The position numbers and the translations under genes are program-made. The notes beneath the pieces were generated by a model. The model was not told where the DNA came from, ran no database searches, and was given only the letters and a program-made list of their open reading frames with translations. Shown here one piece after another: positions 2,189 through 19,366 of a DNA stretch of 30,802 nucleotides. How positions within the stretch are numbered: the first letter of the stretch is position 1; each line of letters opens with the position of its first letter. The stretch covers positions 1-30,802 of IMG/VR virus record IMGVR_UViG_3300042731_004505. The stretch is one strand, 5' to 3'. Source of the stretch: a virus.

Positions 2189-3621
2189 AATTTTTTGATA
2201 AAATTTTCAGCAGATTCGGTTATGTGAAGACATCTTCCCGGTCTCAGTGGGACGATTTCTGGTTTAGCGCTATTTCTGCATTGTCCGCTGCAGGTGTTGA
2301 AATCACGCCTGAAAACGCGTTAAGAGTTTCTGCGATATGGGCCTGCAATCGAGTAATTTCTGAGAGTGTTGCATCGTTGCCATTTATCGTTTATAGGCGC
2401 ATGCCAAGCGGCGGAAAGGAACGGGCTCCTGATCATCCTGTTTATAGGATATTTCAAAATGAACCGAATGAGATTCAGACAGATTACGAATATCGTGAGC
2501 AGATGCAGACGCATCTTAATTTGTACGCTAATGCATATTCTGAAATCGTTTTTAATCGTTACGGGCAGCCTGAATCGTTAAAAATGCCTACTCATCCGAC
2601 AATGGTAAAGATTGAAAAAATGGACGATGGAAGCATTCGGTATGTTTTTAAAGATGCCGGCGCTGAACGGGCATTAGTTCCTGGGCGTGTTTTTCATCTT
2701 AAGGGATTGTCTGTTGATGGTTATTACGGAATCTCACCTATTCAGGCCGGAAAAGATTCAATTGGTCTTGCCAGAGCCGCTGAATTATTTGGTTCCATGT
2801 TTTTTCAAAACGGAGCAAGACCGTCCGGGGTATTAAAACACCCTCAGGTTTTGACTGATAAGGCAAGAGATAATCTTAGAAATTCAGTTGCTCAGCAGTC
2901 AAAAAGCGGGACTTTGATACTCGAAGAAGGGATGGATTGGACTCAGACCACGGTTGTTCCTGAGGAAGCCCAGTTTATCGAGACACGTCAATTTCAAATT
3001 GAAGAAGTATGCCGATGGTATCGAATGCCGCCTCATAAAATTGCCCATTTATTAAGGGCGACATTTACAAATATTGAGCATCAAAGTACTGAGTTTGTTA
3101 CTGATACGTTAATGCCGCATTTAAAGCGGTGGGAAAAAAGAGCATCAAAATCATTATTTGTTGTTGATGGCGATGAGTATTTTGCGGAACATTTAGTTGA
3201 AGGCCTTTTGAGAGGTGACGTTAAGACCAGGACTGAAGCATATTCAAAATATATCAACAATGGTGTTATGTCGCCGAACGAAGTGAGGATTCTCGAAAAT
3301 ATGAATCCGAGAGATGGCGGTGATATTTATTTAACACCGATGAATATGACATCGAGCAATAATCGCAATTCAAATGAAAACGCCAGCATTGATGTCATTG
3401 ATCGGCTTGCAAAAGATGCCGCGGGCCGCATAGCAAATGCCGAAATAAACGGAGCAAGAACTGAAAAGTTTTACGCCAAACATCATAAATATATTCAATT
3501 AGTTTTGCAGCCATTCGGCGTGTCTGCTGATCCACGTTTAATGACGATGCAGTCCGGAATTGATGAGAATAATTTAGAAGACAGTATATATACTTTAATT
3601 ATGGGGCAATTCAATGCATGA
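2185..3621 (+). CDS. Portal protein, HK97-like
   Basis: Dodecameric portal at the head vertex through which DNA enters and leaves, and onto which the neck assembles. The 478-residue product has hallmarks of the HK97-type portal family: the N-terminal RVSAIWACNRVISESVASLP segment, HPVYRIFQNEPN, and the central GYYGISPIQAGKDSIGLA and PPHKIAHLLRATFTNIEHQS segments. Length is typical. It lies between TerL (ATGA overlap) and the prohead protease (8-base overlap), the standard HK97 order. The C-terminal ~75 residues are polar and less conserved. Confidence 0.95.
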   Translation: MKFFDKIFSRFGYVKTSSRSQWDDFWFSAISALSAAGVEITPENALRVSAIWACNRVISESVASLPFIVYRRMPSGGKERAPDHPVYRIFQNEPNEIQTDYEYREQMQTHLNLYANAYSEIVFNRYGQPESLKMPTHPTMVKIEKMDDGSIRYVFKDAGAERALVPGRVFHLKGLSVDGYYGISPIQAGKDSIGLARAAELFGSMFFQNGARPSGVLKHPQVLTDKARDNLRNSVAQQSKSGTLILEEGMDWTQTTVVPEEAQFIETRQFQIEEVCRWYRMPPHKIAHLLRATFTNIEHQSTEFVTDTLMPHLKRWEKRASKSLFVVDGDEYFAEHLVEGLLRGDVKTRTEAYSKYINNGVMSPNEVRILENMNPRDGGDIYLTPMNMTSSNNRNSNENASIDVIDRLAKDAAGRIANAEINGARTEKFYAKHHKYIQLVLQPFGVSADPRLMTMQSGIDENNLEDSIYTLIMGQFNA

Positions 3622-4486
3622 GTATAATCAAATAATAAAGGCTTTGCAGTCGTATGTTTGGGCGATAATACCTGAAAAAATGGATGAAATATTGTTTATG
3701 CTCAATGCGAGGCTCAACAACCAGCCTTACGAAAAAGCGGCGGCCAGGCGTGCGACGAGCTTTAAAGATGTTAAAGGCAAAATTGCTGTTTTGAATATAT
3801 TCGGAACGATTGTGCAGCACGCCGATATGTTTACTGAATGGTCTGGCGGAACATCGACTGAAAATGTCGGAAAAGTATTTGATTCGCTTATCGAAGACAG
3901 TGGGATCGGAGCTGTCGTTTTAAATATTCACTCCCCAGGCGGATCTACGTGGGGAGTCCAGGAATTATCTGATAAGATTTATAATGCCAGGGGCGAAAAA
4001 CCTATTGTCTCAGTCGCAAATTCGATGGCCGGATCTGCAGCTTACTGGATCGGGACTGCGGCTGATGAGTTTATTGTAACGCCAGGAGGCGATGTCGGGT
4101 CTATCGGAGTGTATGCTATCCACGTCGATGAATCAAAACTTGATGAAAATTTAGGCTTGAAATATACAATTATCAAGGCCGGAAAATATAAGGCTGAAGG
4201 GAACCCGTTTGAGTCGCTAAGCGAAGAGGCTATTGATTACTATCAAAGTCATGTTAATGATACTTATGATGCTTTTGTCGGTGCCGTGGCCAGAAACAGA
4301 GGCGTTACGGTTTCAATAGTAAAGTCTGATTTTGGTCAAGGCCGTATGTTAAATGCTAAAAATGCACTTTCAGCAAAAATGGTTGACAGAATTGCAACAT
4401 TTGATGATGTGATTAAAGATATGATCGGAAGTAGAAAAACGAACTCAAATAAAAGAGCCAGTTTGGAGATCAAAAGACGAAGATAG
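3614..4486 (+). CDS. Prohead protease, S49 (SppA/lambda C-like) family
   Basis: Serine protease that cleaves the capsid scaffold during head maturation. The 290-residue product is a single S49 domain: SPGG at residues 107-110, the catalytic serine in NSMAGSAAY (Ser141), and the general-base lysine in AGKYKAEGNPFESLS, most likely Lys193 by comparison with lambda gpC. A conserved GDVGSIGVYA segment lies between them. It overlaps the portal gene by 8 bases. Many HK97-like phages use an S78 protease here, so S49 puts this head module in the lambda C-like protease class. No separate scaffold gene follows; the scaffold is probably the capsid protein's own N-terminal region. Confidence 0.93.
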   Translation: MHEYNQIIKALQSYVWAIIPEKMDEILFMLNARLNNQPYEKAAARRATSFKDVKGKIAVLNIFGTIVQHADMFTEWSGGTSTENVGKVFDSLIEDSGIGAVVLNIHSPGGSTWGVQELSDKIYNARGEKPIVSVANSMAGSAAYWIGTAADEFIVTPGGDVGSIGVYAIHVDESKLDENLGLKYTIIKAGKYKAEGNPFESLSEEAIDYYQSHVNDTYDAFVGAVARNRGVTVSIVKSDFGQGRMLNAKNALSAKMVDRIATFDDVIKDMIGSRKTNSNKRASLEIKRRR

Positions 4487-4493
4487 GTTAAAT

Positions 4494-4598
4494 CCAAAAA
4501 GAAAGTAGGCAGCGGCGGGAGTCATGACCCGCTTGATGCCGTAATCATCGCAGCCTATTACGGGGGCTTGTCGAAAGACAGGTCCCTTTTCTTTTTGG
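4494..4598 (+). ncRNA. Candidate structured RNA (four-way junction) before the capsid gene
   Basis: The protease-capsid gap folds by eye into a compact cloverleaf. A closing stem pairs 4494-4504 (CCAAAAAGAAA) with 4588-4598 (TTTCTTTTTGG), 11 bp plus a G-U. Inside are P2 (4508-4511 with 4537-4540 and 4515-4519 with 4528-4532), P3 (4541-4545 with 4557-4561) and P4 (4563-4572 with 4577-4586, GAAA tetraloop). Linkers are only 0-2 bases. It is not a tRNA: loop sizes and stem lengths do not fit. I recognise no known riboswitch class. A role in transcript attenuation or processing before the most highly expressed head gene is inference. Confidence 0.6.
4563..4596 (+). terminator. Terminator-like hairpin with GAAA tetraloop
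   Basis: A 10-bp stem (4563-4572 with 4577-4586, two G-U pairs) closed by GAAA is followed at once by TTTTCTTTTT. This is a textbook intrinsic terminator inside the late operon. The same U-rich run is the 3' strand of the closing stem described for 4494-4598, so termination and the cloverleaf would compete for it. Partial termination here could set capsid output relative to the upstream packaging genes. Confidence 0.6.
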
Positions 4599-4604
4599 TT
4601 TGAT

Positions 4605-4633
4605 ATGGCGGTAGCCATGGTGTGCGGTAGCAC
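4605..4633 (+). promoter_or_regulatory. Two tandem GGTA-loop hairpins upstream of the capsid start
   Basis: Two adjacent small hairpins share the octamer GCGGTAGC. The first is ATGGC-GGTA-GCCAT (4605-4618) and the second GTGC-GGTA-GCAC (4622-4633). The loops are identical while the outer stem pairs differ but stay complementary, as expected for selected RNA structure. They lie 40-68 bases before the capsid ATG. A protein-binding leader (autoregulation) or an extension of the upstream cloverleaf is possible. The function is inferred only. Confidence 0.5.
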
Positions 4634-4672: not shown

Positions 4673-6013
4673 ATGAATGAATTACTCAAGTTAAAAAACA
4701 GAAAGGCAAAAGCCCTTGACAGTGCGGCGGCCGTTCTGAAGATCGCCGAGGATGAAGATCGCGAAATGACTGAGGAAGAAAAGTCGATGTATGACGGCTT
4801 TGTCTCCGAGGCAGATGCACTTCAAACTCGCATCGATGCAAGAGAGGCTATCATTGACCGCATTGAAAAAACGCCTGCATCCGAAAATGCTGAAGTCGAA
4901 AATGCTGTCGAGAGAGTCACTGACGGAACCCCCGCGTTTTTGAAAGCAAAAAATTATGGCTACGAAAAGGGTATTGGTGAATTTGCCCTTGAAGTTCAAA
5001 ACGCCGGAAACCGTGGGCTCCAGGAAGGCAGCAAGCTTGCAATTATTGAAAAGCATGCCGCTGCAACCGGTATGAGTATCGGTGTCGGATCTGATGGCGG
5101 TTTTTTGCTTCCTCCATTATTCTCTGATCGAATTTATGAAGGCGTATTCAGTTCTGAGTCACTGCTGGGGATGACTGACAGTTATCCGGTTCAGGTCGGC
5201 CAGACTCTGGAAATGCCTGCGGTTAATGAGACATCAAGGGCAGCCGGCTCTCGACATGGCGGTGTTCGCGGTTACTGGCTTGCGGAAGCGGCTCAAATGA
5301 CCGGGTCTAAACCGGCATTTCGCAAAATTGCATTGAAGCCTAAAAAGCTTGGCGTTCTTTGCTATGCAACGGATGAATTACTGATGAACGTCTCTGCATT
5401 GAGCAGATTTTTGGCAAGCGCGTCCATTGATGAGATCAACTTCCTCATTGGAGATTCAATTGTTAACGGTGACGGTGTTGGAAAGCCAATTGGAATTCTC
5501 AGTTCCGGATGTGTTGTGTCTATCACGAAAGAATCGTCCCAGGCAGCCGACACGGTTGTTGCCGGAAATATCAATAAGATGTGGGCTCGTTTGTTTGCGA
5601 GGTCAAGAGGCAATGCGGTATGGCTCATTAACCAGGATGTTGATCCTCAGCTCGACGGCATTAATATTCCACTGACGGATGTTGGTGGGACGGCCACTGT
5701 CGGCGGATTTGCAGTTAAGGTCTACAACGCTGACAATTACACCCTCAAGGGCCGTCCGATTATGCCGATTGAGTACTGCCAGACTGTTGGCGATGCCGGC
5801 GATGTGATCCTTGCTGATATGATGGGCTATGTCACTGGTTATACGGCAGGCGTGGATTCTGCAATGAGTATTCATCTGAGGTTTGACTACAATGAAACCG
5901 CGTTCCGATTCATCTTTGCCGTGGATGGTCAGACCTGGCTGAATTCTGCCGTGACACCATACAAAGGGTCTAATACTCAATCTCACTTCCTCAAAATCGC
6001 TGCAAGAGCGTAA
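4673..6013 (+). CDS. Major capsid protein, HK97 fold
   Basis: Forms the icosahedral head. In the 446-residue product, residues 1-75 are charged and predicted coiled coil (MNELLKLKNRKAKALD onward), matching the delta/scaffold domain removed by the prohead protease. The HK97-fold core starts near 130 and contains GGFLLPPLFSDRI (142-154), as in other HK97-type capsid proteins. The C-terminal part has the usual DMMGYVTGYTAGVDSAMS-like segment. The ATG has an AAGGA ribosome binding site 8 bases upstream. Its leader is unusually structured. The exact cleavage site cannot be read from sequence alone. Confidence 0.95.
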   Translation: MNELLKLKNRKAKALDSAAAVLKIAEDEDREMTEEEKSMYDGFVSEADALQTRIDAREAIIDRIEKTPASENAEVENAVERVTDGTPAFLKAKNYGYEKGIGEFALEVQNAGNRGLQEGSKLAIIEKHAAATGMSIGVGSDGGFLLPPLFSDRIYEGVFSSESLLGMTDSYPVQVGQTLEMPAVNETSRAAGSRHGGVRGYWLAEAAQMTGSKPAFRKIALKPKKLGVLCYATDELLMNVSALSRFLASASIDEINFLIGDSIVNGDGVGKPIGILSSGCVVSITKESSQAADTVVAGNINKMWARLFARSRGNAVWLINQDVDPQLDGINIPLTDVGGTATVGGFAVKVYNADNYTLKGRPIMPIEYCQTVGDAGDVILADMMGYVTGYTAGVDSAMSIHLRFDYNETAFRFIFAVDGQTWLNSAVTPYKGSNTQSHFLKIAARA

Positions 6014-16615: not shown

Positions 16616-17392
16616 TCAGAAACATTCACAATATAAAGCCAGCGTATTATCTCCCTGGTTGCTCAGGCAGTAGCCGGCACTTTCGAGATGCCTTCGTAAC
16701 CCAATCATTTTATAATCAAGACTGTGAGATTCAAAATGAATAATTTTAGGCCTTGTCTTTTCGATTGAGCAATTATAAATCACCTGGTCATCAAGGCCCT
16801 CTGCGTCGACCTGCAGCACGTCTATTTCCGGCCCTAATCCGAGTTTGTCAAGCAGCGGGACAAGCTTCATGCTTTCAGGATGGATCGTCTCTATGGCCGC
16901 CTCAGCGTCTCCTTTGTAATACGTGGATAGCCATTTCTTTGTGTGCTCCGGATCCCCTGATGTTGCGCCTGTCGGGGCTCTGTAAACAGGCCATCCCTTC
17001 GCATATGATGGCATTTTAATAAGCGGCCAGATTTCTTTTTTGATCGCATAGAGCGTTAGGTGCCCTCCTGGCCCTATCGCCCCTGCCCATATTTTATGAT
17101 CGGGATGGAAAGAATAATTTTCAGAAAGATATGGAATTAAGGACTCCTGAGGCTCGATGAGCAATATTTGCGTTTTATCTTTAAATGCCTTTGCAAAATA
17201 GTAAAGTGGATCGGCAAATTTTCCGTCATTGGCGCCGACCTGAACGATTTTTAATTTCTTTTTTATCATCAGCAAAATGACCATCGCACTTTCAAACGCT
17301 GATGATAATTTATCTGGCTCTTGTCTTACTTTGAGTTTGCAAATATCGTAACCAAAACAATTTACGGATTTTTTGATGATTTTTTTAAGCAT
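16616..17392 (-). CDS. FkbM-family methyltransferase
   Basis: SAM-dependent O-methyltransferase of the FkbM type, 258 residues from the ATG set by GGAGG 7 bases upstream; an upstream alternative start at 17419 lacks this. SAM motif I is VQVGANDGKF (50-59), acidic motif II is IEP (79-81), and EIDVLQVDAEGLDD (189-202) plus IIHFESH are family hallmarks. FkbM enzymes often methylate sugars of surface glycans. On the opposite strand from all neighbours and next to the switch, it looks like a lysogenic-conversion gene that alters the host envelope; that role is inference. Confidence 0.85.
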   Translation of the reverse strand: MLKKIIKKSVNCFGYDICKLKVRQEPDKLSSAFESAMVILLMIKKKLKIVQVGANDGKFADPLYYFAKAFKDKTQILLIEPQESLIPYLSENYSFHPDHKIWAGAIGPGGHLTLYAIKKEIWPLIKMPSYAKGWPVYRAPTGATSGDPEHTKKWLSTYYKGDAEAAIETIHPESMKLVPLLDKLGLGPEIDVLQVDAEGLDDQVIYNCSIEKTRPKIIHFESHSLDYKMIGLRRHLESAGYCLSNQGDNTLALYCECF

Positions 17393-17462
17393 TAAACAAC
17401 CTCCAAAAATTCGCCTCACTTTTTAAGTCCGGAAAACCGATAGGCATACATGTAAATTTTGA

Positions 17463-18099: not shown

Positions 18100-18333
18100 A
18101 TGCCACTATACAAAGAAACAAATTGCATAAACTTTTCGGCTCCCGGGTATAAAAATGTCGTGAGAGCGGGTAATGAAATCGCAAGAAAAATTAATAGGCC
18201 GGTCCATGAAGTGGTCTCAGAAATCCTTTTAACTATCAATTCAAAGATACAAAATTCAGACTCAACAAGTCAAGAAAAAAATATATTCTACGATTTAGAC
18301 CTTGATCTTTCACAATTAAATAGGGTGGGTTAG
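18100..18333 (+). CDS. Small ribbon-helix-helix-like protein
   Basis: A 77-residue product from ATG 18100. NCINFSA could be the strand, YKNVVRAGNEIARKI helix 1 and PVHEVVSEILLTINSKI helix 2, again the strand-helix-helix order of small DNA-binding regulators, then an acidic tail. It is transcribed divergently from the 113-residue gene, 140 bases away, across facing promoters that share motifs. A Cro-like antagonist or an excision factor are the likely roles, since the integrase follows. No direct family match is claimed. Confidence 0.6.
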   Translation: MPLYKETNCINFSAPGYKNVVRAGNEIARKINRPVHEVVSEILLTINSKIQNSDSTSQEKNIFYDLDLDLSQLNRVG

Positions 18334-18337
18334 CCCG

Positions 18338-18366
18338 TTGACTAGGGCGTAAAAAACCTTTATTGT
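18338..18366 (+). promoter_or_regulatory. Integrase promoter
   Basis: TTGACT (18338-18343), 17-bp spacer, TATTGT (18361-18366). It is followed by a 6-bp hairpin TGGCCG/CGGCCA (18368-18388) in the leader, ahead of the AAAGGAGG site of the integrase. Confidence 0.65.
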
Positions 18367-18409
18367 ATGGCCGTCTTGCTTGCGGCCAGAACAAGAAAGG
18401 AGGTATTTT

Positions 18410-19366
18410 ATGTCCAAAGTTAGCAGGCTAAGACTAAGTGTGTTGTTAAGCAAATATGCACAGGCAAATAGTCAACTAAGAGAGTCAAGTATTGGAATTG
18501 TCAACACGGCGTTTGATCATCTCTCAATTGCTTTCGGCGATCCGTATATTGATCAGATTGGCGTTATCCAGGCTCAGATGTTCTACGGCTGGATGCTTAA
18601 GAGAAAAGTCAATGACAAGCCTTACAGCCCGGTTACAGTCAAGATTTACATCGAAGCAATTAAGACCGTGTTTAAATGGGCCATTGACGCAAACCTGATC
18701 GAAAACAATCCGTTTGCAAAAGTTCGCAAGATCAAGCATAGGGCAAAAAAGAAAGTGCCTTATGAAGATGACGAGCTCAGGCGGTTGTTTTCGGCGTGTC
18801 CGGATGACCGATGGCGATTAATTATCGCATTGACTACTGTTGGATTAAGGCGAGGTGAAATCCTGAATCTGGCCGTTAATGATCTTGACTATATCAATCA
18901 AGAGATTTATGTTCAGTCAAAGGATCAAACGCTTCAAACGTGGATCTGGAAAATTAAAGACACTGACTCCAGAATTGTTCCCATGACGGGACTGATCGAA
19001 CATTGTGCTTTGCGGATACATGCAACACTGCCGACCGGTCAGCCGTATATTTGCTTGAAGCCCGATCGCTATCAATTTTTATGCCGAAAAGGATTTGAAA
19101 ATCTTTCAGAGCGAGTAAGGAAATGCCCTGAGAGCAATTTTAGACGGTCCCTATTAAGCATCTTTGATCGGGCTAATGTAACATACAAAACATTCCACGC
19201 ATTGCGTGGGACGGCCGGAACGATCATGGCTGAAAACGGCCTAACACCCGAAAAATTAAAAGAGGTGTTAGGCCACTCAAAGATTGAAACGACTTACGCA
19301 CATTATATAGCCCCCCGTAAAGGCTATATAAGCGATGCCCGGAACGCCGCCTACAGGCAGTCATAA
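18410..19366 (+). CDS. int: Tyrosine recombinase integrase
   Basis: Site-specific recombinase for phage integration and excision. The 318-residue product has an N-terminal SAM-like core-binding domain (about 10-105) and a catalytic domain with Arg147 (GLRRGE), a Lys in the IWKIKDTDSR hairpin, His263 and Arg266 (FHALRGT), His289 (LGHS) and nucleophile Tyr296 (ETTYAHY). All catalytic residues are present, so it should be active. The ATG is set by a very strong AAAGGAGG site; an earlier TTG is rejected. A tRNA-derived attachment site follows within 12 bases of its stop, as usual for tRNA-targeting integrases. Confidence 0.93.
   Translation: MSKVSRLRLSVLLSKYAQANSQLRESSIGIVNTAFDHLSIAFGDPYIDQIGVIQAQMFYGWMLKRKVNDKPYSPVTVKIYIEAIKTVFKWAIDANLIENNPFAKVRKIKHRAKKKVPYEDDELRRLFSACPDDRWRLIIALTTVGLRRGEILNLAVNDLDYINQEIYVQSKDQTLQTWIWKIKDTDSRIVPMTGLIEHCALRIHATLPTGQPYICLKPDRYQFLCRKGFENLSERVRKCPESNFRRSLLSIFDRANVTYKTFHALRGTAGTIMAENGLTPEKLKEVLGHSKIETTYAHYIAPRKGYISDARNAAYRQS

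Follow-up and report, generated by a model that had tools for sequence, protein, structure and literature searches.

Which function might a highly structured RNA have between two head genes of a phage, where little regulation is expected? The question is raised by a 105-nt element that fills part of the gap between the protease and capsid genes of a 30.8-kb IMG/VR phage record (IMGVR_UViG_3300042731_004505, positions 1 to 30,802). The whole stretch of 30,802 nucleotides is called the window. The element belongs to a well-supported structured RNA family without an Rfam match, in which covariation renders a pseudoknot and a self-complementary loop directly testable. Moreover, it may reveal how phages balance the structural proteins encoded in one operon, or how they protect late mRNA.

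Structure of the RNA element

The element has a minimum free energy of -50.6 kcal/mol (z -6.3), none of 200 shuffles was equally stable, and its fold ranks among the strongest in the window. A minus-strand reading was rejected, the fold being weaker there (-38.3 kcal/mol, z -4.2). The element ends ~75 bases 5' of the capsid gene. Its outer stem P1 closes the structure, the inner stem P2 bears the hairpins P3 and P4, and the hairpin P5 stands apart, with a U-tract after it (Table 1). P2, P3 and P4 form a three-way junction, and the ten bases after P5 are all U save one C. The G+C-rich P5 directly followed by this U-tract is called as an intrinsic terminator.

An earlier reading of the window, made from its letters only (the sequence-only reading), had proposed a cloverleaf with an 11-bp closing stem, three hairpins within it, and a U-rich run serving both as terminator tail and as 3' strand of the closing stem. 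The computed fold agrees on the closing stem (4494-4504/4588-4598), the three hairpins and the double use of the U-rich run. The cloverleaf itself needs revision, with P3 and P4 placed on the inner P2 as a three-way junction and P5 standing apart, and the pseudoknot between the P4 loop CCGUAAU and AUUACGG after P2 had been missed.

In the interval between the element and the capsid start, two tandem small hairpins with GGUA loops, AUGGC-GGUA-GCCAU and GUGC-GGUA-GCAC, occur at 4604-4632, and a comparable GGC-GGAA-GCC is present at the matching position of another locus, L163. A mobile element was rejected, as no second copy is present within the window.

Table 1. Positions in the window of the element, its parts and the flanking genes
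Feature	Position	Strand	Evidence or remark
Whole RNA element	4494..4598	+	fold z -6.3; 84.7 bits, E 4e-21 with the covariance model, the window itself being among its building sequences
P1 5' strand, A-rich, CCAAAAAGAAA	4494..4504	+	pairs with 4588-4598; own pairing better than swapped partners in 24 copies
P2 5' strand, UAGGC	4506..4510	+	pairs with 4553-4557
P3 hairpin, stem 4515-4519/4528-4532, loop AGUCAUGA	4515..4532	+	stem covaries
Self-complementary 4-mer CAUG of the P3 loop (within UCAUGA, 4522-4527)	4523..4526	+	35 of 36 copies have a palindromic 4-mer here
P4 hairpin, stem GAUG/CAUC, loop CCGUAAU (4539-4545)	4535..4549	+	covariation
Pseudoknot 5' strand (P4 loop)	4539..4545	+	complementary to 4557-4563; 25 distinct covarying loop/linker pairs
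Pseudoknot 3' strand AUUACGG, first base common to P2	4557..4563	+	loop/linker pairing, covariation
P5 hairpin, GAAA tetraloop, terminator stem	4564..4585	+	fold, terminator call, covariation
U-tract UUUUCUUUUU, terminator tail and most of P1 3' strand	4587..4596	+	terminator call; at least seven U in nine bases in 32 of 34 copies
Upstream gene, S49 head maturation protease	3614..4486	+	Pfam PF01343, phrog_53
Downstream gene, major capsid protein	4673..6013	+	Pfam PF05065, phrog_10

Copies in other phages

No close DNA relatives were found in INPHARED. An 18-base piece of P5 matched a contig with a 43% identical protease, and the element is at the same place there. A second pattern, taken from the shared core, gave a dozen true copies among 75 matches. 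With a third pattern (P2/P3 only) and a covariance model, 41 copies came to light in 39 uncultured phage contigs, of which 36 are non-identical, with E-values between 4e-26 and 1e-5 under a model built from 13 sequences that match by construction. Four contigs carry two copies each, and G705/G706 provide one more distinct copy. The second pattern prescribes some bases of the pseudoknot, and the third some in P2, in the junction and in the P3 stem, so that conservation at these positions is partly selected for. The palindrome in the P3 loop, P1, P5 past its first bases, and the U-tract are untouched by either search pattern, and the variation of the pseudoknot is drawn from copies found without a pseudoknot constraint, including the second copy of L196.

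Several matches were discarded. Three DNA-pattern matches (L164, L165, and L166) have only the P5 hairpin in common with the element; around this chance match, L164 (~2189) and L165 (~4409) contain what we take, by eye, to resemble a group I intron core. The genome matches L269 and L279 (~26 bits) are judged false, as the P3 region differs and the terminator tail is absent. No true copy of one exact core pattern was found in 84,980 species genomes, and model R2, in a search of low power, found none over 681 genomes in two phyla. A pattern search of 793 genomes in two further phyla likewise gave none, the three bare pattern matches there having no model score. Plasmids and INPHARED gave no copy in the searches run.

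Covariation and pseudoknot

Covariation was evaluated on the 36 non-identical copies with the pseudoknot written into the structure, in an alignment whose fit took account of P2-P5 and left the pseudoknot aside. Paired cells amount to 95.7%, compared to 79.8% after shuffling, and 25 of the 29 pairs have changed on both sides. The covariation score is 0.410 against 0.134 for shuffles, and none of 500 shuffles reached the observed value in any measure. When the partner is slid by 1-3 columns, a control that preserves the relatedness among copies as shuffling does not, the score does not exceed 0.093. Covariation in homologues, which the sequence-only reading had named as its check, is therefore strong in every helix, and is present in the pseudoknot as well.

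The 25 distinct pairs of loop and linker form 6.04 Watson-Crick base pairs on average, whereas swapped partners form 3.28 (maximum 4.04 in 2000 trials). Examples are CCGUAAU/AUUACGG, CCUUCAA/UUGAAGG, CUAUCAC/GUGAUAG, and CUUGUAC/GUACAAG. Judged by these comparisons among copies, the conserved structure of the element is almost certainly real. Its common features are stem P2, the hairpins P3 and P4, a pseudoknot of 4-7 bp, and the P5 hairpin with its U-tract. Few unpaired bases look conserved, which disfavours a small-molecule aptamer.

Terminator and outer pairing

The terminator tail proposed for the window recurs in 32 of the 34 copies with a complete 3' end, which have at least seven U in the nine bases after P5. 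Outer pairing divides the copies into two widely split groups, assigned from the same energies as those tested: in group A (24 copies, including the window), the partner of an A-rich strand 5' of P2 is the U-tract plus a few bases after it, at -14.25 kcal/mol for own partners compared to -10.43 kcal/mol for swapped ones, and in group B (10 copies), an upstream strand has its complement in the 3' strand of P5 instead, at -24.2 compared to -19.7 kcal/mol, with none of 2000 swaps as good in either group. The upstream strand of group B also folds as a hairpin of its own, P0, and the arrangement of P0 plus P5 competes with a strand-exchanged closed form.

The sequence-only reading had suggested a switch between alternative structures. 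A pairing that competes with the terminator is clear in the 10 group B copies, which support such a switch. The alternative stem of group A extends past the U-tract and, including bases beyond it, is not a classical antiterminator. At the moment when a polymerase either terminates or continues, the U-tract remains part of the RNA:DNA hybrid, and the stem between U-tract and A-tract in the form of the window is therefore unlikely to prevent that polymerase from terminating.

In several group B copies (L212, L308, L315, L291, and L173), an upstream ORF stops inside P0 or the P2/P3 junction, and these stops may couple translation to the fold. The stop codons of upstream ORFs near P0 follow no consistent rule. 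SD sequestration was rejected, the start region lying outside the element in the copies read.

Self-complementary loop of P3

A self-complementary 4-mer (AGCU, CAUG, GAUC, or CGCG) is present in the P3 loop of 35 of the 36 copies, and in 19 of the 20 distinct loops. When the letters of the loops are shuffled, 6.4 are palindromic on average and 13 at most (5000 trials). One pseudoknot type was found with GAUC, CAUG, and AGCU loops, so the 4-mer has apparently undergone repeated change without loss of its palindromy. Since the 4-mer is unable to pair with itself inside its own loop, it is naturally read as a site of pairing with a second molecule, which suggests that P3 loops form loop-loop dimers between molecules. 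In L196 and L317, each copy of the one phage has a different palindrome; as a rule this fails for G705/G706.

An ordinary terminator with a chance fold would account for the canonical terminator that is present. However, this reading is hardly credible and is already contradicted by the conserved palindrome and the covariation of the pseudoknot, P2, P3 and P4, all far above chance.

Inter-subunit loop pairing occurs in phi29 prohead RNA. A trans-acting dimeric small RNA freed by termination at the U-tract, such as a structural or packaging RNA, would be consistent with the almost universal palindrome, the compact fold, the terminator, and the site among head and packaging genes. It is nonetheless quite improbable, as P1 of group A needs bases after the U-tract that would be mostly missing from a terminated RNA, and such an element is missing from that junction in most related phages.

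Gene context

Within late operons, the copies lie on the sense strand and are followed by genes of the capsid, portal, head-tail adaptor, or tail. According to PHROGs, in which some loci have no match, the downstream gene encodes the major head protein (window, L188, L298, L299, and L304), the portal (L171, L303, L305, and L315), the head-tail adaptor (L290 and L295), the major tail protein (L312), the minor tail protein (second copy of L196), or an Ig-domain protein (L292). Consequently, the suggestion that the element sets capsid expression is not supported in that form, as it is not specific to the capsid gene. The genes 5' of the copies include proteases, terminases, and tail terminators. 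The first downstream ATG, which is not always the true start, lies at a median of 16 nt past the match end and leaves no room for a separate promoter.

Among 72 relatives of the window capsid, the gap before the capsid gene has a median length of 35 nt and is mostly unstructured, so the element is a module and is not inherent to the protease-capsid junction. The closest protease relative (52%), in L008, is without the element, and another terminator-like hairpin with a T7 run lies in its protease-capsid gap (3888-3963).

Proposed mode of action

Tentatively, and with a likelihood somewhat short of even, we regard the element as a new family of cis-acting intercistronic terminator/read-through RNA in phage late operons, a reading drawn from sequence comparison. 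Sequence and covariation show the three-way junction locked by the pseudoknot that the P4 loop forms with the strand joining P2 to P5; P5 with its U-tract abuts it as an intrinsic terminator, mostly a few tens of bases 5' of a structural gene. Late transcription would enter from the upstream gene and meet the terminator, and how strongly the downstream gene is expressed would depend on the fraction reading through. Group B would add an antiterminator, its upstream strand taking over the 3' strand of P5. In group A, the A-tract would pair with the U-tract only in read-through RNA, and the downstream mRNA would then carry the closed element as a compact barrier on its 5' side. The balance might be tipped by a protein of the phage or its host, by ribosomes on the upstream gene, or by loop-loop dimerisation of neighbouring transcripts. 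The occurrence of copies before varied structural genes and the contigs with two copies are as expected of a cis element. On the other hand, one would hardly expect a terminator before a capsid gene without efficient read-through, and most relatives of the same capsid manage without the element.

Comparison with known RNA classes

In Rfam 15, no copy in the window and 17 further copy-bearing loci reaches a gathering threshold, in agreement with the earlier statement that no named RNA class is recognised, and a word search of open-licence papers turned up no such element. The best of the weak matches is BjrC68 (RF02353), mainly in the terminator half, with 25.7 bits against a gathering score of 39, and its alignment, unlike the element, is without a pseudoknotted three-way junction. 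ARAGORN predicts no tRNA or tmRNA in the window, and a hammerhead or HDV-like ribozyme was rejected by eye, Rfam giving no match.

Flaviviral class 1a xrRNAs (Xrn1-resistant RNAs) have a three-way junction, a pseudoknot of 2-7 bp that joins an apical loop with the strand 3' of the closing stem, and a following hairpin (PMC8571300, PMC5760640), and flaviviral xrRNA stops bacterial RNase J1 in vitro (PMC5760640). The element likewise has a three-way junction and a following helix, and its counterpart of PK2 (4-7 bp) covaries. The ring of junction and pseudoknot might therefore halt a bacterial 5'-3' exonuclease (RNase J), stabilising the downstream structural mRNA after upstream cleavage, and the scarcity of conserved unpaired bases is also in line with such a barrier. 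However, this reading is unlikely. The conserved C between the junction hairpins of class 1a is absent, its place being taken usually by GA and in the window by UU, and thus the element is not filed under this class. PK1, in which the junction pairs with two bases located 5' of the closing stem, has no consistent counterpart in the copies by eye. In addition, the element differs by its self-complementary loop, which is on the other hairpin, by its intrinsic terminator, and by its setting in phage late operons, and a barrier would leave the terminator, the palindrome, and group B unexplained.

Processive antitermination inside an operon is a function of EAR RNA. HK022 put RNA, of ~70 nt and two stem-loops, lies near early promoters (PMC9378689). 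Like put, the element comes from a phage and may influence transcription elongation, and its intra-operon position on the sense strand in one or two copies per contig would suit an RNA that modifies RNA polymerase for late genes further downstream. In contrast to put, it has ~105 nt with four hairpin stems or junction arms plus a pseudoknot, lies among late structural genes, and carries its own terminator, which makes such a role improbable.

Transcription attenuators and riboswitch expression platforms also place a structured domain beside a terminator, and group B shares their alternative strand pairing; in the element, few unpaired bases are conserved, and terminator and pseudoknot hardly compete. 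A wider view, which we consider doubtful, is that the element is a hitherto unrecognised RNA class, disseminated as a module among phage late operons, whose mechanically locked pseudoknot and dimerising P3 would couple read-through or decay of structural mRNA to the amount of late transcript, and which would possibly be the first natural bacterial xrRNA-like fold.

Other features of the window

Another fold of high stability (-49.1 kcal/mol, z -5.2) lies at 18320-18440, across the beginning of the integrase gene. Its stem appears to sequester the ribosome-binding site AAAGGAGG, and by alignment it is unrelated to the element. On the minus strand, opposite to the structural genes, an FkbM-type methyltransferase (16616-17419; PF05050, no PHROG match) is possibly a host-modifying cargo gene.
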